From Bacteroidota bacterium (GTDB lineage Bacteria > Bacteroidota > Ignavibacteria > UBA10030 > UBA8401), in the NCBI GenBank assembly GCA_013361065.1, contig JABWAK010000017.1:1-36613 (forward strand): 36,613 nucleotides of DNA, read 5' to 3'. Both the position numbers and the translations under genes were made by a program. Shown in pieces: positions 11,262 through 28,235 of the stretch. Positions within the stretch are counted from its first letter, which is position 1; every line of letters starts with the position of its first letter. The notes under the pieces are model-generated. The model did no database searches, was not told the origin of the DNA, and was given only the letters and a program-made list of their open reading frames with translations.

Positions 11262-12467
11262 ATGGCATACAAGAACGGAGATCTCACCAACTCACTGCTC
11301 CCGACGCTGGATCAGATGCGGAAGTACATCCGGAGCGCGAACAACATCGACCGTCGATACCGGGATCCTCGCGGACTGATGAGTACGCTGCAGCGGATGC
11401 TGCAGGTCGATCTGAACCTGCTCGGCCTGGTGCAGACCAGGAAGCTCGCCGTGCTCGGGTACGATTACACGATCGCGATGCCAGAGGGAATCACTCCGAC
11501 GCCGGAGGAAGAGAAGCGGCTCCAGGAGATGAAGCTCCGGTTCGTGAAGTCCCGCATGAGCTCTCTGTTCAATGCCATCATGAACGGCCGCTTGTTCGGG
11601 ATGAGCGCCACCAGGCTGATCTGGAAGAACACTCCGCTCGGCACCATGGTCACGAAAAAGGAACGGTACTCCCTCACCGATCTTGATTTCGATCTGCTGA
11701 CCGATGACGGACTTGATCACCTGAACACCGATACCAACACGCAGATCTATTCGCGCAAGCCGCTTGATCCGGAGACGCACATTCTGATCCGCTTCAATCC
11801 GCTCGACGGCATCGAAGAGAATTTCGTCGGCTCGTTCATGCGGACCAACCTGATCTATTCCTGGATCAAGTACTATGACTATTTCAATTGGGCCAAAGGG
11901 AATGAGAAGTTCGCCGATCCGATGGTCTGGGCTCAGTACCGCCAGGGAGCGCAGAAGGAAGAGGTCGCCGCGGTCGTGGACGGACTGGAGAAGCTCGGAA
12001 CGGATTCCCGCGCCGCGTTCTCCGATGATGTGAAACTGCAGCTGCTCGAATCGGTGCGCTCCGGATCCGTCTCCGCGCACAAAGAGCTCGTGGACACGAT
12101 CAAGACCGAACAGGCGATCAGTATCCTGGGACAGACACTCACCTCAGAGGTCAGCGACAAAGGATCGTTCGCAGCTGCGAAGGTGCACAACTTCGTCCGC
12201 GCCGACATCATGTGGGGAGATCTCCTTGCACTGCAGGAAGCGCTCTCGGAACAGTACATCGTCCAGGACTATCTGAAGAACTACGGTGAACCGGCCTCCG
12301 CGTTTCCCGTCTTCCGGTTCAACACCGATGAGACCGAAGACACCGAAGCCAATGCGCGTGTGCTCGCTGAAGTGAAGAGCATGGACCCGAAGTTCCCGCT
12401 GCTGAAGAAGGAAGTGTATCGCCGGATCGGGTACACTGTTCCGCAGGAAGGGGAAGACACCGTATGA
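11262..12467 (+). CDS. Portal protein (Mu gp29-like, DUF935)
   Basis: The 401-residue protein has the features of the DUF935 portal family. An N-terminal segment RDPRGLMSTLQRMLQVDLNL is followed by QTRKLAVLGYDYTI, a helical wing and a crown. Examples are SWIKYYDYFNWAKGNEKFADP (one residue omitted at each end) and the later ADIMWGDLLALQEALSEQYI. Portals form the dodecameric ring through which the terminase packs DNA. It follows the large terminase with a short gap holding GAGGA, and overlaps the next gene as ATGA. At 401 residues it is somewhat shorter than the Mu protein. Confidence 0.9.
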   Translation: MAYKNGDLTNSLLPTLDQMRKYIRSANNIDRRYRDPRGLMSTLQRMLQVDLNLLGLVQTRKLAVLGYDYTIAMPEGITPTPEEEKRLQEMKLRFVKSRMSSLFNAIMNGRLFGMSATRLIWKNTPLGTMVTKKERYSLTDLDFDLLTDDGLDHLNTDTNTQIYSRKPLDPETHILIRFNPLDGIEENFVGSFMRTNLIYSWIKYYDYFNWAKGNEKFADPMVWAQYRQGAQKEEVAAVVDGLEKLGTDSRAAFSDDVKLQLLESVRSGSVSAHKELVDTIKTEQAISILGQTLTSEVSDKGSFAAAKVHNFVRADIMWGDLLALQEALSEQYIVQDYLKNYGEPASAFPVFRFNTDETEDTEANARVLAEVKSMDPKFPLLKKEVYRRIGYTVPQEGEDTV

Positions 12468-12781
12468 AAGTGAAAGAAGTATTTAACGATGATGGGACTC
12501 ATTACGGATGGGCAGTGAAGTGTCCGGGGTGCGGTGATTATCATCTGTTTGATAATCGCTGGTCTTTCAATGGGGATATGGAGAAACCAACTTTTCGCAA
12601 TTCAATGCTCGCCACTATTGACTGGCCGAAGTATCATCCGGAACTGGACAAACCAAAAGAGATCTGCCACTCATATGTTACTGATGGTCGTATTGAGTTT
12701 TTGAGCGACTGCACTCATACTCATGCCAGACAAACAATGGATCTCCCGGATATAGATCCGCTTTGGAATGAACCTCGATGA
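12464..12781 (+). CDS. DUF6527-like zinc-site phage protein
   Basis: The 105-residue protein has the pattern of small phage proteins of the DUF6527 type: CPGCGDYH (about residues 20-27), WSFNGDMEKPTF (about 33-44), then ICHSYVTDGRIEFLSDCTH (about 68-86). The paired Cys and His residues suggest a bound zinc. The role of this family is not known to me. It is placed between portal and gpG with ATGA overlaps on both sides, and its codons are more AT-rich than those of its neighbours. That fits a recently acquired accessory gene riding in the late operon. Confidence 0.75.
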   Translation: MKVKEVFNDDGTHYGWAVKCPGCGDYHLFDNRWSFNGDMEKPTFRNSMLATIDWPKYHPELDKPKEICHSYVTDGRIEFLSDCTHTHARQTMDLPDIDPLWNEPR

Positions 12782-13389: not shown

Positions 13390-13560
13390 TCATTGATTTA
13401 CCGGAGTATTCCGATTCGTATCCATAACGAGAATAATTGCACTCAGACAATCCTGACGATTAATGTAGGATTCTCCCGAATCTGCAATAATTCTATGATT
13501 GGCAGATCTCAAACGCCATCGCCAATTCAACTGAACATCTTGGAATAATTGAAAATACAT
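13390..13560 (-). CDS. DUF1508/YegP-like small protein
   Basis: This 56-residue frame starts at the ATG at 13560, seven bases after a near-perfect ribosome site AAAGGAGGT. The sequence FQDVQLNWRWRLRSANHRII, followed by ADSGESYINRQDCLSAI, matches the YegP/DUF1508 repeat, in which W-R-L-x-A-x-N-x-x-I-x-S and a later S-x-x-x-C are the usual positions. The family is widespread, forms small beta-alpha folds and has no firmly known role. One repeat is present where YegP has two. It is convergent with gpG and likely cotranscribed with the 48-residue gene upstream. Confidence 0.78.
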   Translation of the reverse strand: MYFQLFQDVQLNWRWRLRSANHRIIADSGESYINRQDCLSAIILVMDTNRNTPVNQ

Positions 13561-13643
13561 TGTTCGCACCTCCTTTCGTTGTCAGATGATAAGGTGACAG
13601 ATTCACCGAAGTTGCTTTCGGTGAATCCGCCGCATCCAGCGAA

Positions 13644-13790
13644 TTAAACCTTCACTGGAATTCGCCAGGCTTTGAGACCAAAGTCCTTGGCGACTTGTTT
13701 TTTGCCGTTTACCATTCGCGATGCGCGAAAGATATAACGACAGCCGGGCTTATCGCCCTGCGGATCAGGTTTATGCCGTTCTGCGGACAT
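13644..13790 (-). CDS. Very small basic protein, unknown
   Basis: A 48-residue frame starts at the ATG at 13790, after the ribosome site AAGGAGGT. The frame is open further upstream, but a promoter-like element (13846-13873) and the ribosome site favour this start. The product (MSAERHKPDPQGDKPGCRYI, then FRASRMVNGKKQVAKDFG and a short end) is basic and has one Cys. The phrase CRYIFRASRMVNGKKQVAKDFGLK (shortened here in meaning to a basic strand-turn-strand) suggests a small nucleic-acid or protein binding fold. I recognise no family. It precedes the DUF1508-like gene on the same strand. Confidence 0.62.
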   Translation of the reverse strand: MSAERHKPDPQGDKPGCRYIFRASRMVNGKKQVAKDFGLKAWRIPVKV

Positions 13791-13845
13791 AAATACCTCC
13801 TTCTTTTGAAGGTGATATTGATCCTTGCATCTGACAGCGAAAGTG

Positions 13846-13873
13846 TATATAATTGCATCCCGATATACATCAA
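13846..13873 (-). promoter_or_regulatory. Candidate promoter for the two small minus-strand genes
   Basis: On the minus strand TTGATG (13873-13868) is followed after 16 bases by TATATA (13851-13846), about 55 bases before the ATG at 13790. It fits a sigma70-type promoter with a slightly short spacer. Confidence 0.45.
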
Positions 13874-13925
13874 CACCGTCCCCCTGTGCAAGCGTTATTT
13901 GCTTTCCAGATGGGTCTGAAAACAG

Positions 13926-13967
13926 AAAAGCCAAGAATTCGTCTCATCACGATTCTTGGCTTTTTTT
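13926..13967. terminator. Bidirectional intrinsic terminator
   Basis: A perfect 13-bp stem (AAAAGCCAAGAAT with ATTCTTGGCTTTT) is followed by a T-run on the plus strand and an equivalent run on the minus strand. It could end rightward late transcription that passes gpG. Confidence 0.8.
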
Positions 13968-14010
13968 ATGGTGTTGATCGTACTGTAAGAATTAACAGGA
14001 AAGAAATTCC

Positions 14011-14039
14011 TTGACTGTACAGCCGACTGTCCCTATATT
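14011..14039 (+). promoter_or_regulatory. Sigma70-like promoter of the small RNA candidate
   Basis: TTGACT (14011-14016), a spacer of exactly 17 bases, then TATATT (14034-14039). This is the best consensus promoter I see in the window. No protein-coding frame of useful length starts behind it, and a strong terminator lies about 110 bases downstream. Confidence 0.65.
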
Positions 14040-14045
14040 AAAAAA

Positions 14046-14158
14046 GGCCGAGTTGATGAAACTGGGCTAAAACAACCAATATCCAACTACTTCCACGTTT
14101 TTGGTATATTTTGGGATTTTCAACAGGCACCTACGCCAATAGGTGCCTGTTGTGTTTT
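14046..14158 (+). ncRNA. Candidate small RNA of about 113 nt
   Basis: The interval between a well-spaced promoter and a 13-bp intrinsic terminator holds no frame beyond a few codons (ATG AAA CTG GGC then stop). Near the 5' end GGCCGAGTT and AAACTGGGCT can form an imperfect hairpin, which leaves a single-stranded middle before the terminator stem. This is the build of a regulatory small RNA. I cannot name a family or a target. It lies between the structural operon and the MuF operon and is transcribed towards the latter's 3' end. Confidence 0.5.
14121..14158 (+). terminator. Intrinsic terminator of the small RNA candidate
   Basis: CAACAGGCACCTA (14121-14133) and TAGGTGCCTGTTG (14140-14152) form a perfect 13-bp stem with loop CGCCAA, followed by TGTTTT. 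Confidence 0.85.
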
Positions 14159-14438
14159 AAACCCTGAATTCGATGACTATTTGAAAGAACAATTTTGGCA
14201 CTCTACCATTTAGAGTGCTATGTCAATATATATGGTTACACCACTCAAGTCAAGTTTATACATACGTATAAATATTTAACCTAATTCTTAACTTTACACG
14301 ATCACTGAAAACGGACCCCCTAATTATTGTTGTCATAAATTGAGAAAATTTTTCTAGAGAATCAGTTCCTCTATAAACCTACAATATTGAAACGACAATT
14401 CCAAAAAAAACCTTTCCAGAATAATTAAAAACATAAAG
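14159..14438. other. AT-rich stretch without a gene
   Basis: I see no supported coding frame on either strand. The only clear structure is a perfect 8-bp hairpin, GCACTCTA (14198-14205) with TAGAGTGC (14211-14218), without a T-run. ATACGTAT near 14270 is a short palindrome. The low GC contrasts with the flanking phage genes. Confidence 0.5.
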
Positions 14439-14470
14439 AAAAAAGGCAGGTTGAAATACCTGCCTTTTTT
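14439..14470. terminator. Bidirectional terminator ending the MuF operon
   Basis: AAAAAAGGCAGGT (14439-14451) and ACCTGCCTTTTTT (14458-14470) pair perfectly around TGAAAT. It has a T-run in both directions and stands about 80 bases after the stop of the HTH gene on the minus strand. Confidence 0.85.
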
Positions 14471-14864: not shown

Positions 14865-15119
14865 TTAATCAATTAATCCGTCTTCAGTTTTTCCGAGTGT
14901 TATCTCTCCACGCATAATCGCTGTCCACCTCTCGGCGGCGGTTCGTTCACACCGTTTCAAGAACATCCACAGAACGATCTCTTCATCTCGCGAAATTGAA
15001 CCCGCGTTCTTTTTGTCTGAGAGTGCCGACATCTCTTCCACTACCGATTCGACATTAACCCCCTCCTCGCCAGTGGTGTTAAGTTTGATGATTGCTTCTT
15101 CCAATTGTGCAAGTGTCAT
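14865..15119 (-). CDS. Small acidic protein coupled to MuF; possible immunity protein
   Basis: The 84-residue product starts at the ATG at 15119, which overlaps the MuF stop as ATGA. An ATG three codons earlier is possible but has a worse ribosome site. It is acidic (about residues 1-40 rich in Glu, with a VESVVEEMSAL helix) and ends in a helical region with WMFLKRCERTAAERW. I recognise no family. Small acidic proteins translated right after a toxin-bearing protein are often immunity proteins, which is my hypothesis here because MuF carries an extra metallopeptidase-like domain. It could equally be an ordinary small morphogenesis protein. Confidence 0.65.
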   Translation of the reverse strand: MTLAQLEEAIIKLNTTGEEGVNVESVVEEMSALSDKKNAGSISRDEEIVLWMFLKRCERTAAERWTAIMRGEITLGKTEDGLID

Positions 15120-16534
15120 TGTATCCATCCTAACTTAGTGAACAATTTGTCGATCTCTGTTTCGATAACTGCGAACTCTTCATCACTCCACTGGCTGTCC
15201 CCCTCTATCGGATCGCTCCGCATTTGTTCTAACTGATTACGCAGAGTCGGATCCTTGGTCTTGACCGCGATGTACTGTGCATACGACCTCGCCCACAATT
15301 CTTCTTCACTCAGCAGGTAACTAAAATGGCTCCGGACCTCTGGGCTGTATATCTTCTCTTTGATCCCCAATCTCTCCACCTCGATGTATCCTCTGTCATA
15401 AACTGATTTCAGTTTTTGATATGCTTTGCTTCCTTTAACCACATTTCTCCATTCATCCATCATCGGGTCAGACATGGAAGACATCGCTTTTCTTATTCCG
15501 ATTCCCGAGTGATCAAGATAGTGTCCGACTTCATGGATGGTCGTCATTTCGACATGCGCTCCGTCCTCACGTATTTCAATATCGACGGCTTCACGCGAAG
15601 AAGAGTACCACCGAAACCTTCCATACTCTTTTCCGCGACTCATTCTAACGACTGGCAGTAATTTTAATTGGCCATCACCATGAGTACGGTCGATGAATGC
15701 CATAGCTCGGTTGATTTTATTTTTAAGCTCTCCTCTTGCCTGCACACTCAATGCTTCACTGACCGGCGTTCCCGCTGCAGTGTTGCTTACAACTTTCTTT
15801 TTGGTTCGCGCTCCCTTCTTCGGCAGCTCACTCACCAGCGGAGTCCAGAAATGTGTGCAGTTGTATCCGCCGCAGCTGGTCTCCACCGGGATCCCTTGAC
15901 CGTTGTCCATCTTTCGGATCTGTGCGAGCGTGAATTGCTTTCCCAGGTGTTCTCGGCAGAACGGCCGCGTGTTGGTGTGCAGCACTCCATCGTAAAGGAA
16001 CTTCTCCACGCCGCCCTGCTGAGCATACTCGAACATCATGCCGTTGTCGAACTGAGCGAGCGCGGTGATGGCGAGCGTGCGGGACTGCGCTTCGCCGAGT
16101 GAACGGTGGAGAAGACGGGAGCGGAGCTCTTCGTAGCCTTTCCCCTGGCGGATGGAGCGGCGGATCTCCTCAGTGATGATCTCACCGGCGCCGTTGCGGA
16201 TCTTTCTGAAGTCCACTTTGTAGAGCGACTGCATCTTCTCGAAGAGGTTCGGATCGGCTGCGTCGAACAGATCAGTGCTCTCCTGGAAGAACTGGTCCCA
16301 GAGTTCCGCGATCTGAGCCTGGGACTTTTTGAAGACCTCAAATGTCAATGCTTTTTCTGTGGCCGGGATGTCGAAGTATATTTCGACAGCGCTCAAAAAA
16401 GCCTGTAAATCACCGCGTCCGTGCTTCCGGTAAAGATAGTCCAATTCCCGGATGATTGCACGGCGGTACCGGGGAGAGTTCATCTCAAGTTTGGCTTGAA
16501 AGTCTCTTTTGATTTGCTCAATTTGAGTTCGCAT
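15116..16534 (-). CDS. MuF-like minor head protein with C-terminal HExxH zincin-like domain
   Basis: Residues 1 to about 235 form a Mu gpF/SPP1 gp7-like head morphogenesis domain. It ends with the usual cysteine/histidine cluster: C193 in PFCREHLGK, then C221, C226 and H228 in CGGYNCTHFW. After a Lys-rich linker (240-248), residues about 265-472 hold HEVGHYLDH, with H334, E335 and H338 as a zinc-peptidase HExxH motif. E410-E412 in SEEELWARSYAQY is a plausible third ligand. MuF proteins sit near the portal and can enter the cell with DNA, and some carry toxin domains. The start is weak: no ribosome site precedes 16534, only 21 bp from a divergent gene, so the N-terminus may be trimmed. Confidence 0.83.
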   Translation of the reverse strand: MRTQIEQIKRDFQAKLEMNSPRYRRAIIRELDYLYRKHGRGDLQAFLSAVEIYFDIPATEKALTFEVFKKSQAQIAELWDQFFQESTDLFDAADPNLFEKMQSLYKVDFRKIRNGAGEIITEEIRRSIRQGKGYEELRSRLLHRSLGEAQSRTLAITALAQFDNGMMFEYAQQGGVEKFLYDGVLHTNTRPFCREHLGKQFTLAQIRKMDNGQGIPVETSCGGYNCTHFWTPLVSELPKKGARTKKKVVSNTAAGTPVSEALSVQARGELKNKINRAMAFIDRTHGDGQLKLLPVVRMSRGKEYGRFRWYSSSREAVDIEIREDGAHVEMTTIHEVGHYLDHSGIGIRKAMSSMSDPMMDEWRNVVKGSKAYQKLKSVYDRGYIEVERLGIKEKIYSPEVRSHFSYLLSEEELWARSYAQYIAVKTKDPTLRNQLEQMRSDPIEGDSQWSDEEFAVIETEIDKLFTKLGWIQ

Positions 16535-16555
16535 AATAATATTTGCGGAGAAACT

Positions 16556-17269
16556 ATGGTTATTTCAGATATTCAAAAAATCATTTGTAATGATATTCTA
16601 AATAGTACTTTCTACTCAGTTGACATAATGCTTACTGATTTGGTAAAGTTTGAAACGATCGATAACCCAACACATAAAAGGTTCGAAAAGTATTGGGCAC
16701 TTTTCAAAGGTAAAGAACACGGATTAGTGCCTCAAGACCGTGTTCTTGTTCGTCAGTATGTGCTGGAATACATTGCTCTGGTTAATCTTTTAGTGGATGC
16801 CGGGCTTGTGGTTAGAACTAATCCAATAACTTCTGAATATATTTATCCTATTTACATTCAAGACTCAGATGGTAAATTCTTTCCCGACCAACTTATTTTA
16901 AGTTTGATTCGTGAAATAGTGGATGATGAGATTTATCCTTTGGAGCCCTTCAAGCACTTCATTAAAAATAATTTCGTAACAATAGCTGAATCTGTTGAAA
17001 TCGAGGAACGGCATAAGCGACAACACGAATCTGATACAATAAAGGAACAGTATTTAGAAGAAAAAAAGGCACGACGAATTTCTCAACGGATTTCTATTGG
17101 CTTAGCAATCATTTCTTTGGCTGTATCACTATATTCGGCTTACACTTATTCCATAACCAGAGAAGTATTTATCAAGAATCCATCGGCATTTCGTGACACA
17201 ACAAAAGTAATTCTTCTTCAAACACAAAATGATCTTCACTTTGATACACTAAAATCAAAATTGCGTTAA
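16556..17269 (+). CDS. Single-pass membrane protein of the AT-rich cassette
   Basis: I chose the ATG at 16556 (GCGGAG upstream), not the longer frame reading back through MuF. The 237-residue protein has a long, mostly helical cytoplasmic-looking N-terminal part with no motif I know and a charged helix around residues 150-178 (EERHKRQHESDTIKEQYLEE). One membrane segment follows near 186-206 (ISIGLAIISLAVSLYSAYTY) and a short tail. It is AT-rich compared with the phage genes on either side and runs against them. It may be a lysogenic conversion or exclusion gene, but nothing in the sequence proves it. Confidence 0.7.
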   Translation: MVISDIQKIICNDILNSTFYSVDIMLTDLVKFETIDNPTHKRFEKYWALFKGKEHGLVPQDRVLVRQYVLEYIALVNLLVDAGLVVRTNPITSEYIYPIYIQDSDGKFFPDQLILSLIREIVDDEIYPLEPFKHFIKNNFVTIAESVEIEERHKRQHESDTIKEQYLEEKKARRISQRISIGLAIISLAVSLYSAYTYSITREVFIKNPSAFRDTTKVILLQTQNDLHFDTLKSKLR

Positions 17270-17551
17270 ATGTATATCCTTTACACTCCCGAAACTAAAC
17301 ACATCCTCCAATGTGTGATCCCTCTGGACACCGGACCGTGGTTCGAGTGGAGCAGGGAGATCCACGATACATCAATCATTCCTACTATAGAAGATGCCGT
17401 CCTTCTTGCCCTTGAGGTCCAAAAGGTCCGAATGTCTGAAGATCTATTTCATTATTCAGTACAAGTGGTTCCACTTTCGCCACTCAAAGTGCCATTATTT
17501 GAGAAACCCGCATTTGAAATTCCATCCCAACGAAGACTAATTTTAAACTGA
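17270..17551 (+). CDS. Small hypothetical protein, middle gene of the cassette
   Basis: The ATG at 17270 directly follows the stop of the preceding gene (TAAATG), so translation is coupled. The 93-residue product has no membrane segment and no recognised motif. Its centre TIEDAVLLALEVQKVR looks like an amphipathic helix between strands (ILYTPETKHILQCVIPL and FHYSVQVVPLSPL). It may be a soluble partner of the two membrane proteins around it. The sequence is close in style to small housekeeping-like hypothetical proteins, and its function is unknown. Confidence 0.6.
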   Translation: MYILYTPETKHILQCVIPLDTGPWFEWSREIHDTSIIPTIEDAVLLALEVQKVRMSEDLFHYSVQVVPLSPLKVPLFEKPAFEIPSQRRLILN

Positions 17552-17575
17552 TTCTCCCACAAGTCACAATATCGT

Positions 17576-18124
17576 ATGAAAAATTTTAGAACTCTTTTAT
17601 TATGGTTCACTAACTATGATAAGCATAACAAGGATGTTGTTGATTCGATCAACGGTTACATCCAACCTCTAAAGCAACAATATTATTCAAAACGAGCTGC
17701 GGACATTGAGACCGCTCTTATTCCTCCCAAAAACGGATTTTGGGCGAATCCTGAGGCGAGAAAAGAAAGCGTAAATACTTTAATTGTCGAACAGTTTTGT
17801 AGCGAACTGTTTGCTATCATTCGTGATAATATTCTTCCAAAAATGAGATTCATCAACCCTGCAGATACCCAAATTATTGAAAGAACTATCAGGCCAATTG
17901 TTGCTTCTTTTGGTGAGTCCATAATCAAAAACAATCAAAAAGTGAGAATGGCAATTCACAATTTGTTCGAAAAAATTCAAGCCGAAATACAGCAGAAAAC
18001 TCTGAGTGAGCAGAAGGAGCGCTTGGATTTTAAATTGGAAACAACTCGTGAAAAAGTATTTTCTTTTATTTTTTTGGTAATCGGAACCATTCTCGGGTAC
18101 TTCTTGGATTATTTTGGCAAGTAG
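17576..18124 (+). CDS. C-tail-anchored membrane protein of the cassette
   Basis: This 182-residue protein begins MKNFRTLLLWFTNYDKHNK. It is predicted to be helical throughout and ends in a membrane helix (about residues 162-178, VFSFIFLVIGTILGYFLDYF) right at the C-terminus. A coiled segment (KIQAEIQQKTLSEQKERLDF) precedes the helix. The layout, a soluble body with one terminal membrane anchor, is shared with the first gene of the cassette. Its last 16 bases overlap the end of the convergent gene on the other strand. It is AT-rich like its two companions. I recognise no family. Confidence 0.68.
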   Translation: MKNFRTLLLWFTNYDKHNKDVVDSINGYIQPLKQQYYSKRAADIETALIPPKNGFWANPEARKESVNTLIVEQFCSELFAIIRDNILPKMRFINPADTQIIERTIRPIVASFGESIIKNNQKVRMAIHNLFEKIQAEIQQKTLSEQKERLDFKLETTREKVFSFIFLVIGTILGYFLDYFGK

Positions 18125-18648
18125 TCAGATACTCCGATGATTCCATTGATAACATCGTTCACATTGAATGATGATCCACACTTCGAACACCTCCCCGTTT
18201 TATTTTTATGCGGTAGCCACTTGGAACGGGGATGCTGCATCACATGCGAACACTTCCTGCAGGTGTAGCTCAGCACTGGATCTGATGCTTCCCTCTTCAC
18301 CGGCCGGAACTTCCGGAAGGATCCATACATCTTGAGCAGATAGCTGAAGTGGTATCCCCTCTGCTCCGCCGCGAACGAATCCATCCAGAACGCATCGACC
18401 TCCTCTTTCCATTCATCCAGTGAAGGGATCTCCGGTTCGCCGGTCTCTTCATCCACCCACATCTTCTGCGCGTGCTGTGTGAGCATTTTCTTGAGAGCTC
18501 CGAACTTCAGCTTACTCTCCCGGCCGGTCCGCTCCTTGTGTGAATAGAAGAAGTATCCGGCGAACTGCTGCTGCCAGGATGGTGCCTTCTTCTCTTCTAC
18601 CTGGACCGGCGCCGGGTCACCCTGGATGAGATTCAGCTGATCGTTCAC
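18109..18648 (-). CDS. Zinc-ribbon protein, GTG start
   Basis: I take the GTG at 18648, which overlaps the upstream stop as GTGA and has GGAGG nine bases before it. A start further upstream would translate the neighbouring gene in the wrong frame. The 179-residue product has a charged helical middle (FGALKKMLTQHAQKMW and DEWKEEVDAFWMDSF) and a C-terminal zinc ribbon with CRKC and CSKCG about 28 residues apart. It could bind nucleic acid or proteins in early phage development. The stop codon lies inside the 3' end of the AT-rich cassette, which suggests that the cassette boundary reshaped its C-terminus. Confidence 0.7.
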   Translation of the reverse strand: MNDQLNLIQGDPAPVQVEEKKAPSWQQQFAGYFFYSHKERTGRESKLKFGALKKMLTQHAQKMWVDEETGEPEIPSLDEWKEEVDAFWMDSFAAEQRGYHFSYLLKMYGSFRKFRPVKREASDPVLSYTCRKCSHVMQHPRSKWLPHKNKTGRCSKCGSSFNVNDVINGIIGVSDYLPK

Positions 18649-18893
18649 CTGGTCCTCCGGGATCCCTGGCGGGATCTCCCTTTTCGGGAATTGATCACTT
18701 CCGAGGATGACCGTTTGTAGAACGGATCGCCGGTCGGCTTTTCGATGAACTCCGCGATGAAGCCGCAGTTCGTGCACCGGCGTCCCAGGCGGCGGAAGGT
18801 CTTATAGAAATGATCATCCACCCGGACCACTCCGCCAGGGAGCTCTCCGTCTTCCACATCCTTATAATCGAATTTGCATTTGGGACAGATCAT
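18645..18893 (-). CDS. Small zinc-ribbon protein
   Basis: The 82-residue product starts MICPKCKFDYKDVEDGELPG and has CPKC (residues 3-6) and CTNC (residues 40-43), the two halves of a zinc ribbon. A basic, Ser- and Arg-rich tail follows. It is the distal partner of the GTG-start zinc-ribbon gene in the early operon and is joined to it by a GTGA overlap. The two together would be a split pair of zinc-binding proteins. A single protein made by frameshifting is less likely because no proper slippery heptamer is present at the join. Confidence 0.66.
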   Translation of the reverse strand: MICPKCKFDYKDVEDGELPGGVVRVDDHFYKTFRRLGRRCTNCGFIAEFIEKPTGDPFYKRSSSEVINSRKGRSRQGSRRTR

Positions 18894-24038: not shown

Positions 24039-25949
24039 TTAAATGAATTTGTGCCGATACTTATTGTCTTCGCGCCTGGCTTTCTCCTCCGCATCCGGAT
24101 CCGGTAGAGCCTTCTTCGCTTCTTCGGTGAGTGTCTTCACATCCACCACCGGGAGAGCTCCTTGACCGTTGGTGATGTTCTTCACCGATTCCCTCACCTG
24201 CCTCTGGAAGTCTCCCTGCTTCTTCATCCGCTCTGGGAGGTTCGGTTCTGCGATCGGATGTGTCCGCTCGCTGTAGAGCGCTTCATCGATGTACCGGCCG
24301 GCCTCATCGAAGACCAGGAGAGAATTCGGAAGGAACTCGTGCTGCAGGCCATCCGGCCGGTTGAACCAAAAGCCATCGATAGGATTGTATTTGATGAAGA
24401 CATTCTGCAGCCGGTAGAGCGGCATCCGGGGTGACTCATAGAACATGTGCCGCTTGAATTCGATCTTGCCGTCCCTCCGGACCATCTTCGTTGCACCTTC
24501 CAGGAAGTGGAATGCGATCGTTGACGCTGCCACGCGGCGGACCGGATGATCGGCCGTGAGGATCTCCCATACCTGATTCGGTGAGCGTTCATCCATACCG
24601 TGTCCGGTGGAGATCCGGTTATTATGCCGGTCGATATACTCACGGATCGATGCTGCCAGATCGAAGTAGTCTGCGAACTGGAAGAACTCGCCGGTGTTCC
24701 GGTTGGTGAACTCCACATTGATCAGGTTCCGGACCTTCTTCTCGCTCCGGTACCGGTTCACGTTCATCTTCAACCACTCCGGCTGCATCCAGTACTTGGC
24801 GCCGGTCCAGTCCTGGAACTCCTTCGCCCAATCGGTGAACCCTCCGCGGCCGAATGCGCGTTCGATGATCTTGGCGCGGGGATTCTTGAAGATGGCATTG
24901 ATGTCCTTGATGCCGAGGCCGGTGATGATCCCTTTATACTCCATCTGCTTCACCAGGTCATCGACTTCATCCAGGCGGAGGACGGTGTTCACTTCCTCCA
25001 GCTGGGATCCGGAGACGCGCATTGCACGGAACTCCTTACCATTGTCCATGTATGCGTATTGAGGGATGCCGTACTGCGTGAAGCATGTATAGAGTGCGGT
25101 CTTCACTCCGAGGGAGTTCGGTGTCTTTGCCAGGGCAGCACCGACGATCTTGTATGTTCTCCAGTCCACCCACACGCACAGATGAGGCATCACCAGCTCG
25201 CCATCGATCCACTTCACGATGCGGTCCACACGCCAGTAATCACCCACGATCACTTCGAGCGGCTTCAGGTGTGTCCGGTCCCGGAGGATGGCCGGTGTCT
25301 GCTGCCGGAGCGCGATCGGTCCCTTGGTCACGAACTCAGATTCGAAGTGCAGCACCTTCTTCAACTCTGCATGGATCCGGTGCCAGGTGCGGGGTGAGAG
25401 CTCCGGCAGGAACAGATCGTCGAGGCATGCCTGGACGAAGTGCTTCGGAGTGTGCTTCTTGATCAGGTATCCCTGGACGATCTGCTGCTGCTCCACCGTG
25501 AACTTCATGAAGGCAGACTCCTTGTTCACCCTCCGGTCCGTGCTATGGTCCCGGTAGAGCCAGGCGCGGGAGACGCCGAGCAGCTGCGCGAGCATCATCA
25601 CCAGATCCGTCCGCTTCATCAGCCTCCATTCCGGCACCGCCTCCAGGAGACCGGATTCGGCCGGTGAGAGATTGTCGAAGTTCTTCCGGACGATCGAAGA
25701 TGCCAGGAGCCGGTTCCCTTCGTTCGGTTCGAGGGACCGTCTCACGGAGAGACTCTTCGCCTGGACCGGGGTGATCCACTTCTGTTCGAGGAGACTGTCC
25801 ACAGAGATCTGGAGCTGGCGGCCGGTCGGAATAACTTCATATCGTGTATCGATGGATCTATTTCGTTTTACCTGCATTCGGAGCGCATCATAGTCCTTCC
25901 CCATTGTTTCGGAGAGCGCTCTCAGTGGAATCCATTGATTCGTGGTCAT
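24039..25949 (-). CDS. MuA-type DDE transposase
   Basis: From the ATG at 25949 the protein has 636 residues. An N-terminal HTH/Mu-type DNA-binding domain (about 1-75) has the IPLRALSETMGKDYDALRMQ pattern. Next comes a second binding region, then the RNase H-like catalytic core with D237 (VIVGDYWRVD), D302 (YAYMDNGKEF) and E363 (KIIERAFGRGG). The spacings of 65 and 61 residues are close to those of MuA. A beta-barrel domain and a charged C-terminal tail (about 575-636), where MuA binds MuB, follow. It cuts and joins phage ends into target DNA during integration and replicative transposition. A start 18 codons upstream is open but has no ribosome site. Confidence 0.95.
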   Translation of the reverse strand: MTTNQWIPLRALSETMGKDYDALRMQVKRNRSIDTRYEVIPTGRQLQISVDSLLEQKWITPVQAKSLSVRRSLEPNEGNRLLASSIVRKNFDNLSPAESGLLEAVPEWRLMKRTDLVMMLAQLLGVSRAWLYRDHSTDRRVNKESAFMKFTVEQQQIVQGYLIKKHTPKHFVQACLDDLFLPELSPRTWHRIHAELKKVLHFESEFVTKGPIALRQQTPAILRDRTHLKPLEVIVGDYWRVDRIVKWIDGELVMPHLCVWVDWRTYKIVGAALAKTPNSLGVKTALYTCFTQYGIPQYAYMDNGKEFRAMRVSGSQLEEVNTVLRLDEVDDLVKQMEYKGIITGLGIKDINAIFKNPRAKIIERAFGRGGFTDWAKEFQDWTGAKYWMQPEWLKMNVNRYRSEKKVRNLINVEFTNRNTGEFFQFADYFDLAASIREYIDRHNNRISTGHGMDERSPNQVWEILTADHPVRRVAASTIAFHFLEGATKMVRRDGKIEFKRHMFYESPRMPLYRLQNVFIKYNPIDGFWFNRPDGLQHEFLPNSLLVFDEAGRYIDEALYSERTHPIAEPNLPERMKKQGDFQRQVRESVKNITNGQGALPVVDVKTLTEEAKKALPDPDAEEKARREDNKYRHKFI

Positions 25950-26060
25950 GTGTTTACTTCGGTTCCGATTATTTGACAGGTGAAGAGTTGTGAAAATCAG
26001 CACGGTGCACTACTTTGTCACATTACTTCTGTTCATTGTTGATGAGCAGTTCAATAATAA

Positions 26061-26328: not shown

Positions 26329-26712
26329 ATGCCGTTTTCAGAGAATTTAAGCGCGAAGAGGATAGCCAGGGGGTTCAGTCAGCAAGAACTTGCTGAACGA
26401 GTGGGCAGCAAAAAGCAGAATATCGCTGCTTACGAGCAGGGACGCGCTCAACCATCAAATGAACTTCTATTAAAAATTGCTGCTGAGTTAAATACCACAC
26501 CAGGTGAACTTTTAGGGACCGAAAAATCGAAGAATGAAACAGCTGAGAAGTTCACTTATTGGGAATCGCGCACCGGTCACTTCACAGAACAAGAGAAGAA
26601 GGATCTTGATAAATTCATTCAAGAGCTGCTAACAGAGGATAGGGGAAACAGGAAAACTGCGATGGATGTTGCGAGAGTGGTATTAAAACAGGGAAAGAAA
26701 AAGAAGGAATAG
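26329..26712 (+). CDS. XRE-family repressor
   Basis: The 127-residue protein has a typical N-terminal Cro/C1 HTH (residues about 6-58) with RGFSQQELAERVGSKKQNIA, the YEQGRAQPSNELLLKIA turn-helix and TPGELLG at the end. A charged C-terminal part probably serves dimerisation. It stands divergent from the Ner-like gene with operator palindromes between, so it is the probable lysogeny repressor. No ribosome site is seen before the ATG at 26329; the mRNA may be leaderless. An ImmA-type protease gene follows after a few bases, suggesting control by cleavage rather than by RecA. Confidence 0.85.
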   Translation: MPFSENLSAKRIARGFSQQELAERVGSKKQNIAAYEQGRAQPSNELLLKIAAELNTTPGELLGTEKSKNETAEKFTYWESRTGHFTEQEKKDLDKFIQELLTEDRGNRKTAMDVARVVLKQGKKKKE

Positions 26713-26714
26713 CT

Positions 26715-27137
26715 GTGAGATCTGTTACTGATTATTATCAAGAGCTCTTGACAAAATATAGTGGAACAATTAATTTCAAAAGGATCTGTGCAGACGAAGA
26801 AATATTAGCCGTTAAAGGCATCCTCCCGGATGGTCTTAACGGCTTTTTTATTTCTGATGGTGATCGAAAAGTTATTGTTCTTAACGAGAAAATAAGCTAC
26901 GAAGAACGCAGGGATTGGGCTTTTCATGAGCTCTGGCATGCACTGAAGAGTCCGCAAAGCAGCACATATCACGGCTCTATTAAGGAAGAATATAAAGCAA
27001 ATCTATTTGCAGCATTGTGCCGTGCACCGGTGGTCCGCGAAGGAGACACCATTGAATCCGTTAGAGAGAAGTATAATTGTTCAATTTGGCTGGCTAAATT
27101 TCGACTCGATTATGCCGTAAAACAACTCCAAAGGTGA
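26715..27137 (+). CDS. ImmA/IrrE-type metallopeptidase
   Basis: The 140-residue product starts at a GTG three bases after the repressor stop, with AAGGA before it. It has the zinc motif HELWH (H71, E72, H75) and a downstream KEEYKANLFAA helix with E91/E92 as probable third ligand, the signature of ImmA/IrrE peptidases. Such enzymes cleave the partner XRE repressor and so induce mobile elements, as in ICEBs1. The adjoining repressor gene makes this pairing likely. It implies that the prophage responds to a signal other than the SOS response. Confidence 0.87.
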   Translation: MRSVTDYYQELLTKYSGTINFKRICADEEILAVKGILPDGLNGFFISDGDRKVIVLNEKISYEERRDWAFHELWHALKSPQSSTYHGSIKEEYKANLFAALCRAPVVREGDTIESVREKYNCSIWLAKFRLDYAVKQLQR

Positions 27138-27141
27138 GTGT

Positions 27142-27732
27142 ATGAAGAAAATTGTGATCTTGATATTCGTTCTGAGTTGCGTGGGATTGGCCGATGAAGT
27201 CTATCTAAAGACAGGATATGTAATCAAGAATGTTACTGTGAAAGACACAGTGAACAATTTTGTGGTATTATCATCCAGGGATGGAGATAAGAGAATCGTT
27301 CTATCTCAAATTCTTAAGATCGTTCTCTCTAATGTTGATATTAATTCAGGCCCATCAATGGAAGTCTTTGAAGAGAAAATGGTACAGCGTAGTTTCGCGC
27401 AGACAAATGAGAAAAATGAACCGATTCTAGTAACTTACGAGCGACCCAGAATAGGAATGGCATCCATTTCAATTATTGCTGCATTATTGGCTTACGACAA
27501 TTTTGATCAGTCATCTAATCTGCAGACGGAGATAGATAGGATGAATTCACTAAATACGGGATCGGGAATCTCTGTATCCTTCGACACTTCGCACTATGAA
27601 TCAGAAAAATCAAAAAGGATCGCATTGGGTGTAGCATATAGCATTGTCGCTATCGTTAACCTGGTCTATTCACTCGAAAAGGTTGAAGTGAAGGCATCAA
27701 GTAACAGTATCGGCATGGCCTATCATTTTTAG
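27142..27732 (+). CDS. Exported or lipoprotein-like protein near the prophage end
   Basis: The 196-residue product starts with a signal peptide (MKKIVILIFVLSCVGLADEV). VLSC could be a lipobox, or cleavage may follow GLA. The body has a strand-rich part (YLKTGYVIKNVTVKDTVNNF and an SSRDGDKRIVLSQI stretch) and a hydrophobic helix near 111-124 (MASISIIAALLAYD). A second hydrophobic stretch lies near 166-180. The first half resembles small secreted proteins with a beta fold, but I recognise no family. It follows the repressor-ImmA pair after four bases, so it is likely made in the lysogen and may change the host surface. Confidence 0.7.
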   Translation: MKKIVILIFVLSCVGLADEVYLKTGYVIKNVTVKDTVNNFVVLSSRDGDKRIVLSQILKIVLSNVDINSGPSMEVFEEKMVQRSFAQTNEKNEPILVTYERPRIGMASISIIAALLAYDNFDQSSNLQTEIDRMNSLNTGSGISVSFDTSHYESEKSKRIALGVAYSIVAIVNLVYSLEKVEVKASSNSIGMAYHF

Positions 27733-27827
27733 TGTTCGAAAGGTTGATTTTGTTCGAAAGCTCTGTTCGAAAGGTTCATTTTTTGATGTAATTTACGCTG
27801 TTTTTGGTCCTGAGTTGTTCGAAAGGT
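27733..27827. repeat. Four TGTTCGAAAG sites, probable transposase end-binding sites
   Basis: TGTTCGAAAGGTT occurs at 27733-27745 and 27764-27776, TGTTCGAAAGCT at 27751-27762 and TGTTCGAAAGGT at 27816-27827, all in the same orientation. The first and third also share ATTTT two bases on. They begin right after the last phage stop codon and before host DNA. Mu ends carry several MuA-binding sites with a CGAAA core, so these are good candidates for the repressor-side end sites. Confidence 0.68.
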
Positions 27828-28143
27828 CTATTGCTATAAATGACATCTCCATTTTTTTGCTGAAATCCGGACAATTAATCTCAAATTGATGGCATAACCC
27901 CTCCTCTCCGTTCACCGTTGTCTCAAGTATCTGACATAGCCATACCCACCGTTCACCGAATCTTCTTTGCAAATATCCGCGTAAACCTGCAAATTTGAAC
28001 CACTTATCACGCTAGATCAGGCCGCTTTCCGTTGCAGCCATTTTTCACATTCTGTCTCAAGTCTGTGGCACGTTTCACGAGCTCCTGAGGGTCCGTTAAA
28101 AATTCTTCAGAATCGTGAAAAACAGATGAAACAATCGTATATT
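27828..28143. other. Gene-free junction between prophage and host
   Basis: No coding frame is supported here. Two short direct repeats occur: CCGTTCACCG at 27908-27917 and 27949-27958, and TGTCTCAAGT at 27919-27928 and 28053-28062. The prophage terminus (expected to end in CA on this strand) and any target duplication lie somewhere in this stretch or just before it. I cannot place it without the other end. Confidence 0.5.
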
Positions 28144-28224: not shown

Positions 28225-28235
28225 AATGGAACAAT

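Follow-up and report, generated by a model that had tools for sequence, protein, structure and literature searches.

What do three AT-rich genes wedged between the genes of a prophage do for the bacterium that carries them? The genes lie in a stretch of DNA of 36,613 nucleotides (the window), which is an entire contig of the 3.8-Mb draft genome of a Bacteroidota bacterium of the class Ignavibacteria. The element carrying the three-gene cassette is a Mu-type transposable prophage, most of which is held by the window (Table 1). Its MuA-type transposase is 42 to 44% identical to the counterparts in prophages of two other genomes of the family, G301 and G244. Between 26.2 and 18.1 kb, the minus strand encodes, besides the transposase, a MuB-like ATPase, a Gam-like protein, and small genes. 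The terminase and portal genes are on the plus strand, and the left part of the window has capsid and tail genes in minus orientation; the labels MuB, Gam, capsid, and tail were given from sequence resemblance and position. Host TetR/TolC/RND-type efflux genes start at 28226, beyond the repeats that probably form the transposase-binding end of the prophage. No RNA families were found in the window.

Table 1. Coordinates of the cassette, its neighbors, and the genes and repeats that define the prophage.
Feature	Position	Strand	Remarks
MuF (Phage_Mu_F)	15116..16534	-	C-terminal HExxH/LPD1-like extension; start without Shine-Dalgarno site
Promoter-like site upstream of gene 1, inside MuF 5' end	16509..16537	+	TTGATT-17-CATAAT; weak, 9/12 consensus match only
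Gene 1	16556..17269	+	237 aa; GGAG five bases before ATG
Gene 2	17270..17551	+	93 aa; TAA of gene 1 abuts its ATG; no TM segment
Gene 3	17576..18124	+	182 aa; predicted all-helical; C-terminal tail anchor at residues 161-179
Zinc-ribbon gene	18109..18777	-	Right neighbor of the slot; no homologue in G301 or G244 prophages
MuA-type transposase	24039..26003	-	phrog_310, E 2e-47; defines the element
cI-like repressor and ImmA/IrrE-like peptidase	26329..27137	+	Lysogeny genes, on the cassette strand
Four TGTTCGAAAG repeats	27733..27834		Probable transposase-binding end of the prophage

The original prediction described three AT-rich plus-strand genes packed tightly between minus-strand neighbors, and this layout holds at both edges: only 21 bp (16535 to 16555) separate gene 1 from the MuF start, and gene 3 shares 16 bases with the 3' end of the zinc-ribbon gene. 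The GC content is 34% in gene 1, 44% in gene 2, and 36% in gene 3, compared to 51 to 57% in the MuF, zinc-ribbon, terminase, portal, and transposase genes; the GC3 is 28 to 41% in the cassette genes versus 60 to 77% in the same five phage genes. By maximum likelihood, the AT-rich segment extends from 16479 to 18209. Neither a terminator for the cassette nor flanking repeats marking it as a transposon or an integron cassette were found. The MuF start had also been said to lack a ribosome site, and indeed no Shine-Dalgarno sequence is seen in the upstream GTTTCTCCGCAAATATTATT; other phage genes in the window carry strong Shine-Dalgarno sites, e.g., AAAGGAGCACC. The MuF N termini of the window and G301 align, so the window MuF is not truncated.

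Three prophages, including that of the window, were compared at this junction, the two relatives having been found by a MuF search in the family. In G301, a zinc protein, an unnamed 132-aa ORF, a C5-methyltransferase, and MuF follow on one strand, with the stop of the methyltransferase overlapping the MuF start. In G244 the junction is almost empty, MuF coming nearly directly after a Gam-linked gene. The zinc-ribbon/MuF junction is thus a variable cargo slot, which holds differing cargo or almost none in related prophages. The wrong strand, the foreign composition, and a slot otherwise filled in the two relatives all bear out the passenger nature proposed for the cassette, and we consider it very probably a horizontally acquired prophage passenger. 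In the manner of moron-type cargo, it consists of extra genes of foreign composition that are absent from the same junction of related prophages. In the simplest history, MuF once closed the early operon, to which it was translationally coupled, and the cassette was inserted before it; entry just before MuF on the other strand would explain the absent ribosome site.

Does gene 1 belong to a protein family? A single-sequence search of 391 genomes of the class yielded weak matches, and iterated profiles yielded ten relatives in total. The family of 11 members occupies 11 of 381 sampled genomes of the class (~3%), with 18 to 32% identity to the reference member, and no convincing relative was found in the other sampled genomes of the genus of gene 1. 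Leave-one-out profiles recover each member at E values of 1e-9 to 1e-36 (database of 200,000). The proteins are 183 to 264 aa long. A motif resembling M.LS.FQK.IV opens most of them, and each has a single transmembrane (TM) helix near or at the C terminus, mostly after a basic stretch. A C-terminal tail of ~35 to 60 aa is present in 9 of the 11, most of which show the motif R.V.I...DT..V or a variant; the members in G438 and G476 end at the membrane. A seven-member divergent alignment was too variable for pattern scans, and a scan with a pattern from a closer four-member alignment returned two contigs, the same loci as those of G399 and G490. Gene 1 is almost certainly part of a real, scattered, and unnamed membrane protein family, which as judged from sequence is newly recognized, divergent, and founded by the window member.

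The profile matches L009 to L011, L016, L026, and L035 to L037 were kept out of this family. Those inspected were unrelated ORFs or broken frames, L035 being of RodZ type and L010 an ABC-transporter-type permease; L026, L036, and L037 were excluded on weak scores and frame lengths alone.

The topology of gene 1 emerged from its relatives. Its highest hydropathy peak, at residues 68 to 86 (KD 1.82), falls in the soluble domain, and the TM segment at ~181 to 199 (KD 1.69) was placed by the family alignment, the hydropathy maximum being near the C terminus in 10 of 10 relatives. The protein is predicted to comprise a cytoplasmic N-terminal domain, a basic juxtamembrane helix, the TM helix, and a tail of ~38 aa with a REVFIKNPSAFRDTTKV motif; the usual position of the helix after a basic stretch predicts that the N-terminal domain is inside. 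Hydropathy places a TM segment at residues 161 to 179 of gene 3, followed by a 3-residue tail, so the one-pass topology proposed for genes 1 and 3 was right. So was the statement that none of the three proteins belongs to a known family, as far as Pfam, PHROGs, NCBIfam, and PADLOC models reach. The gene 1 relatives that were scanned likewise had no match in PHROGs, PADLOC, or (three members) Pfam; in PADLOC-DB 2.0.0, the best E values were 0.007 (Csn2) and 0.034 (AbiEi) for the window proteins and 0.028 for the gene 1 family, short of any assignment to a defense system. Weak CAF1, AbiEi, Csn2, and RbfA matches are far under any cutoff and do not recur across the gene 1 family. Phage, plasmid, and IMG/VR collections queried with single proteins gave no match, a PDB sequence search with genes 1 and 3 gave nothing meaningful, and neither an enzyme motif nor a confident fold was found in gene 1.

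A search for the three genes elsewhere had been suggested, especially in defense islands and other prophages; it returned gene 1 relatives in phage-like DNA and beside defense genes, and never the three genes together. Three of the 11 family members (window, G409, and G399) lie in phage-like DNA. In G409, a short phage-type contig, the relative is a plus-strand gene between two minus-strand genes, the strand layout of the window, and the small ORF after it overlaps the next gene, again as in the window. In G399, it is 0.5 kb behind a PD-T4-6/mad6-like kinase gene in a phage-like AT-rich region, whose phage signs are a weak Rz-like spanin and a phage metallophosphoesterase. In G476, the tail-anchored relative is followed 0.2 kb downstream by a DRT8 reverse transcriptase gene (E 2e-161) in the same direction (L042:2569-4897, G476:C42), and the relative of G438 adjoins PD-T4-6/mad6-like kinase and PP2C genes with a type I restriction-modification system ~4 kb off. 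In G532 the relative comes after genes for an NTase and an ORF6N protein, and in G317 it is between a PIN DUF4411 gene and one for an AlbA-type protein. The remaining four (G459, G463, G490 on a 4-kb contig, and G212) have no recognized defense, toxin-antitoxin, or phage neighbor. For reverse transcriptase, kinase, and HsdS genes within 5 kb, a rough estimate gives 0.17 expected by chance versus three loci observed, but these families were picked after viewing the neighborhoods, and allowing for 10 to 15 times more eligible families brings P to 0.03 to 0.11. The G438 region deserves separate mention as a probable defense island, with a WD40-repeat protein, the kinase, the PP2C phosphatase, the gene 1 relative, an HTH/ImmA pair, and the type I restriction-modification system in 12 kb (L041:281-11963, G438:C599).

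Context and topology together make defense or exclusion an even prospect as the function of gene 1. The original prediction had likewise proposed superinfection exclusion or phage defense, which is plausible; exclusion often operates through a membrane protein at DNA entry, and membrane anchors are predicted for genes 1 and 3. We give similar weight, roughly one way as much as the other, to a fuller reading of the locus, a lysogen-expressed passenger operon in the cargo slot whose gene 1 encodes an inner-membrane defense or exclusion protein. The horizontally acquired operon would have entered the slot that separates the early operon from MuF; in the lysogen, a promoter within the 5' part of MuF would drive its transcription on the repressor strand. 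Upon induction, lytic transcription that continues from the early operon into MuF would traverse the cassette antisense and shut it off, which fits lysogen-only expression. The gene 1 product would sit in the inner membrane, its domain facing the cytoplasm, and may act on incoming phages, either by blocking DNA entry or by detecting infection and then perturbing the membrane. Gene 2 and gene 3, the latter encoding another helical protein with a tail anchor, would be accessory or independent passengers. A precedent for such an arrangement is Pseudomonas phage Fc02, where an exclusion gene (olg1/gene 10) that lies on the repressor strand, opposite the lytic operon, is documented to be transcribed by the lysogen (PMC9936078). 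The Fc02 gene and P22 SieA (PMC10883804), which give superinfection exclusion, are likewise small prophage genes. No sequence relation to either system was detected, the Fc02 genes adjoin the repressor, and Olg1 is soluble, whereas genes 1 and 3 of the cassette are predicted to be membrane anchored.

Could gene 1 instead be a regulator? It might be a membrane-tethered winged-helix DNA-binding protein, a one-component regulator like ToxR or CadC, that alters host surface or prophage genes in lysogeny. Winged-helix proteins (PadR, LmrR, MarR, RTP, and TFIIE) dominate the Foldseek list obtained with the gene 1 model, the topology is N-in, and a RodZ-type protein, in which an HTH domain, a TM helix, and a periplasmic part follow each other, was a weak profile match. 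A cytoplasmic domain, one TM helix, a periplasmic tail, and this faint winged-helix resemblance are what gene 1 shares with ToxR/CadC and RodZ. None of the Foldseek matches is significant, though, the best PDB E value being 0.37 for a low-confidence AlphaFold2 (AF2) model (pLDDT 61.6), and the alignment shows no conserved recognition helix. The tail is only ~40 aa and is absent in G438 and G476, indicating that a periplasmic sensor domain is not general and that the tail is dispensable. A regulator is therefore rather unlikely. The same model retrieved from BFVD one uncharacterized 182-aa phage protein (E 0.0096, probability 0.98).

The two membrane proteins might also form an abortive-infection or toxin-antitoxin module, in which genes 1 and 3 oligomerize and depolarize the membrane when triggered, with gene 2 restraining them or sensing the trigger. 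Two single-pass proteins do flank a small coupled soluble protein, and gene 1 relatives adjoin toxin-antitoxin-type genes and defense enzymes that are possible sensors, but no pore-type motif is present and neither gene 2 nor gene 3 is found with gene 1 elsewhere. Across 381 genomes of the class and the collections covered, neither gene has a reliable relative, and gene 3 has none in 297 genomes of the phylum; their weak matches are located in long unrelated proteins, and six short weak gp41/COX matches of gene 2 in the PDB were judged chance. Single-sequence AF2 gave one model of gene 3 with a pLDDT of 81.5, consisting of helices only, and four others at 40 to 47. The original prediction had taken the three genes as a set and named a lack of co-occurrence in other genomes as what would speak against it; that lack is what was found, and genes 2 and 3 are best regarded as passengers that are separate or were assembled locally. 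An effector encoded by gene 1 would need to work alone or with changing partners, since genes 2 and 3 are missing beside its relatives, and we regard the three-gene module as decidedly unlikely. A generalization of the defense reading, in which the gene 1 class consists of single-pass membrane effectors that serve both as lone prophage exclusion cargo and as an exchangeable antiphage part captured beside DRT8, kinases, and PIN/NTase sensors, is a quite doubtful proposition at present.

Another possibility is that the cassette is decaying or neutral DNA with no present function, given that two of its three genes lack relatives and that genes 2 and 3 lack Shine-Dalgarno sites. All three ORFs are intact with coding-like composition by codon position, however, and gene 1 shows conservation of both sequence and architecture among distant relatives. 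In 1,000 dinucleotide shuffles of 16535 to 18124, no plus-strand ORF of at least 182 aa arose, so neither the 182-aa nor the 237-aa frame is expected by chance. A length of 93 aa was reached in 13% of the shuffles, and the case for gene 2 therefore rests on its position, its codon-position GC (0.55/0.34/0.41, coding-like), and its local composition (2 of 1,000 shuffles). Idle DNA is thus very improbable. The weakest alternative, that the cassette confers immunity or poly-immunity to the MuF polymorphic toxin next to it, with its metallopeptidase-like C terminus, draws on the HExxH/LPD1 extension of the window MuF and on the immunity genes, sometimes several, adjacent to MuF toxins of Bacteroides prophages (PMC11699363; PMC5576092), but it is extremely unlikely, with immunity ORFs sitting downstream of MuF, where an 87-aa ORF at 14865 to 15128 is the natural candidate, the cassette lying upstream, divergent, and different in composition, and no MuF seen among the listed neighbors of the gene 1 family members in, e.g., G476, G399, and G317.

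What is new at this locus is the gene 1 family; prophage cargo is of a known kind already. The slot resembles known variable cargo slots in that a fixed junction holds unrelated cargo, the methyltransferase in G301, the cassette in the window, and nearly nothing in G244, but the window cargo is not a recognized defense system and the comparison covers three related prophages. Similarly, the gene 1 relative stands directly upstream of DRT8, a defense reverse transcriptase of PADLOC, in G476, whereas the cassette has no reverse transcriptase and DRT8 relatives on plasmids have no gene 1-type partner, meaning that the pairing with DRT8 is not fixed. The relatives beside DRT8 and kinase genes are concrete and testable pairings. 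If the family protects cells, it would be an unrecognized membrane protein family in the temperate-phage cargo of a little-studied class, missed by four profile libraries, and the slot comparison points to where further cargo of this prophage lineage may be sought.

A second variable slot lies beyond the repressor and ImmA genes. The window has a 196-aa protein with a signal-like start there (27142 to 27732, plus strand), G301 has a 114-aa membrane protein (L023:3963-4307), and G244 has proteins of 152 and 310 aa (L052:467-1854). About 0.9 kb of AT-rich DNA (13549 to 14450; 35 to 45% GC) between convergent units has no long ORF and no Rfam match.

In most phages, MuF comes directly after the portal gene; that of the window closes the early operon, on the strand opposite to the portal. 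Its extension carries an HExxH motif (IHEVGHYLDH) and has an LPD1-like end; the MuF of G301 lacks this extension, and in that of G244 it is different. The 87-aa ORF, on the minus strand, shares 13 bases with MuF across the MuF stop, and from their sequences the two look like a MuF polymorphic toxin with its immunity gene. The G301 MuF (L004:1492-2214) is short, 240 aa, with a TGA just past the MuF domain and no toxin-like extension. The spot between the portal and the virion-morphogenesis gene, the usual place of MuF, is taken in the window by a DUF6527-like gene (12464 to 12781, plus strand) that is 53% conserved in G301.
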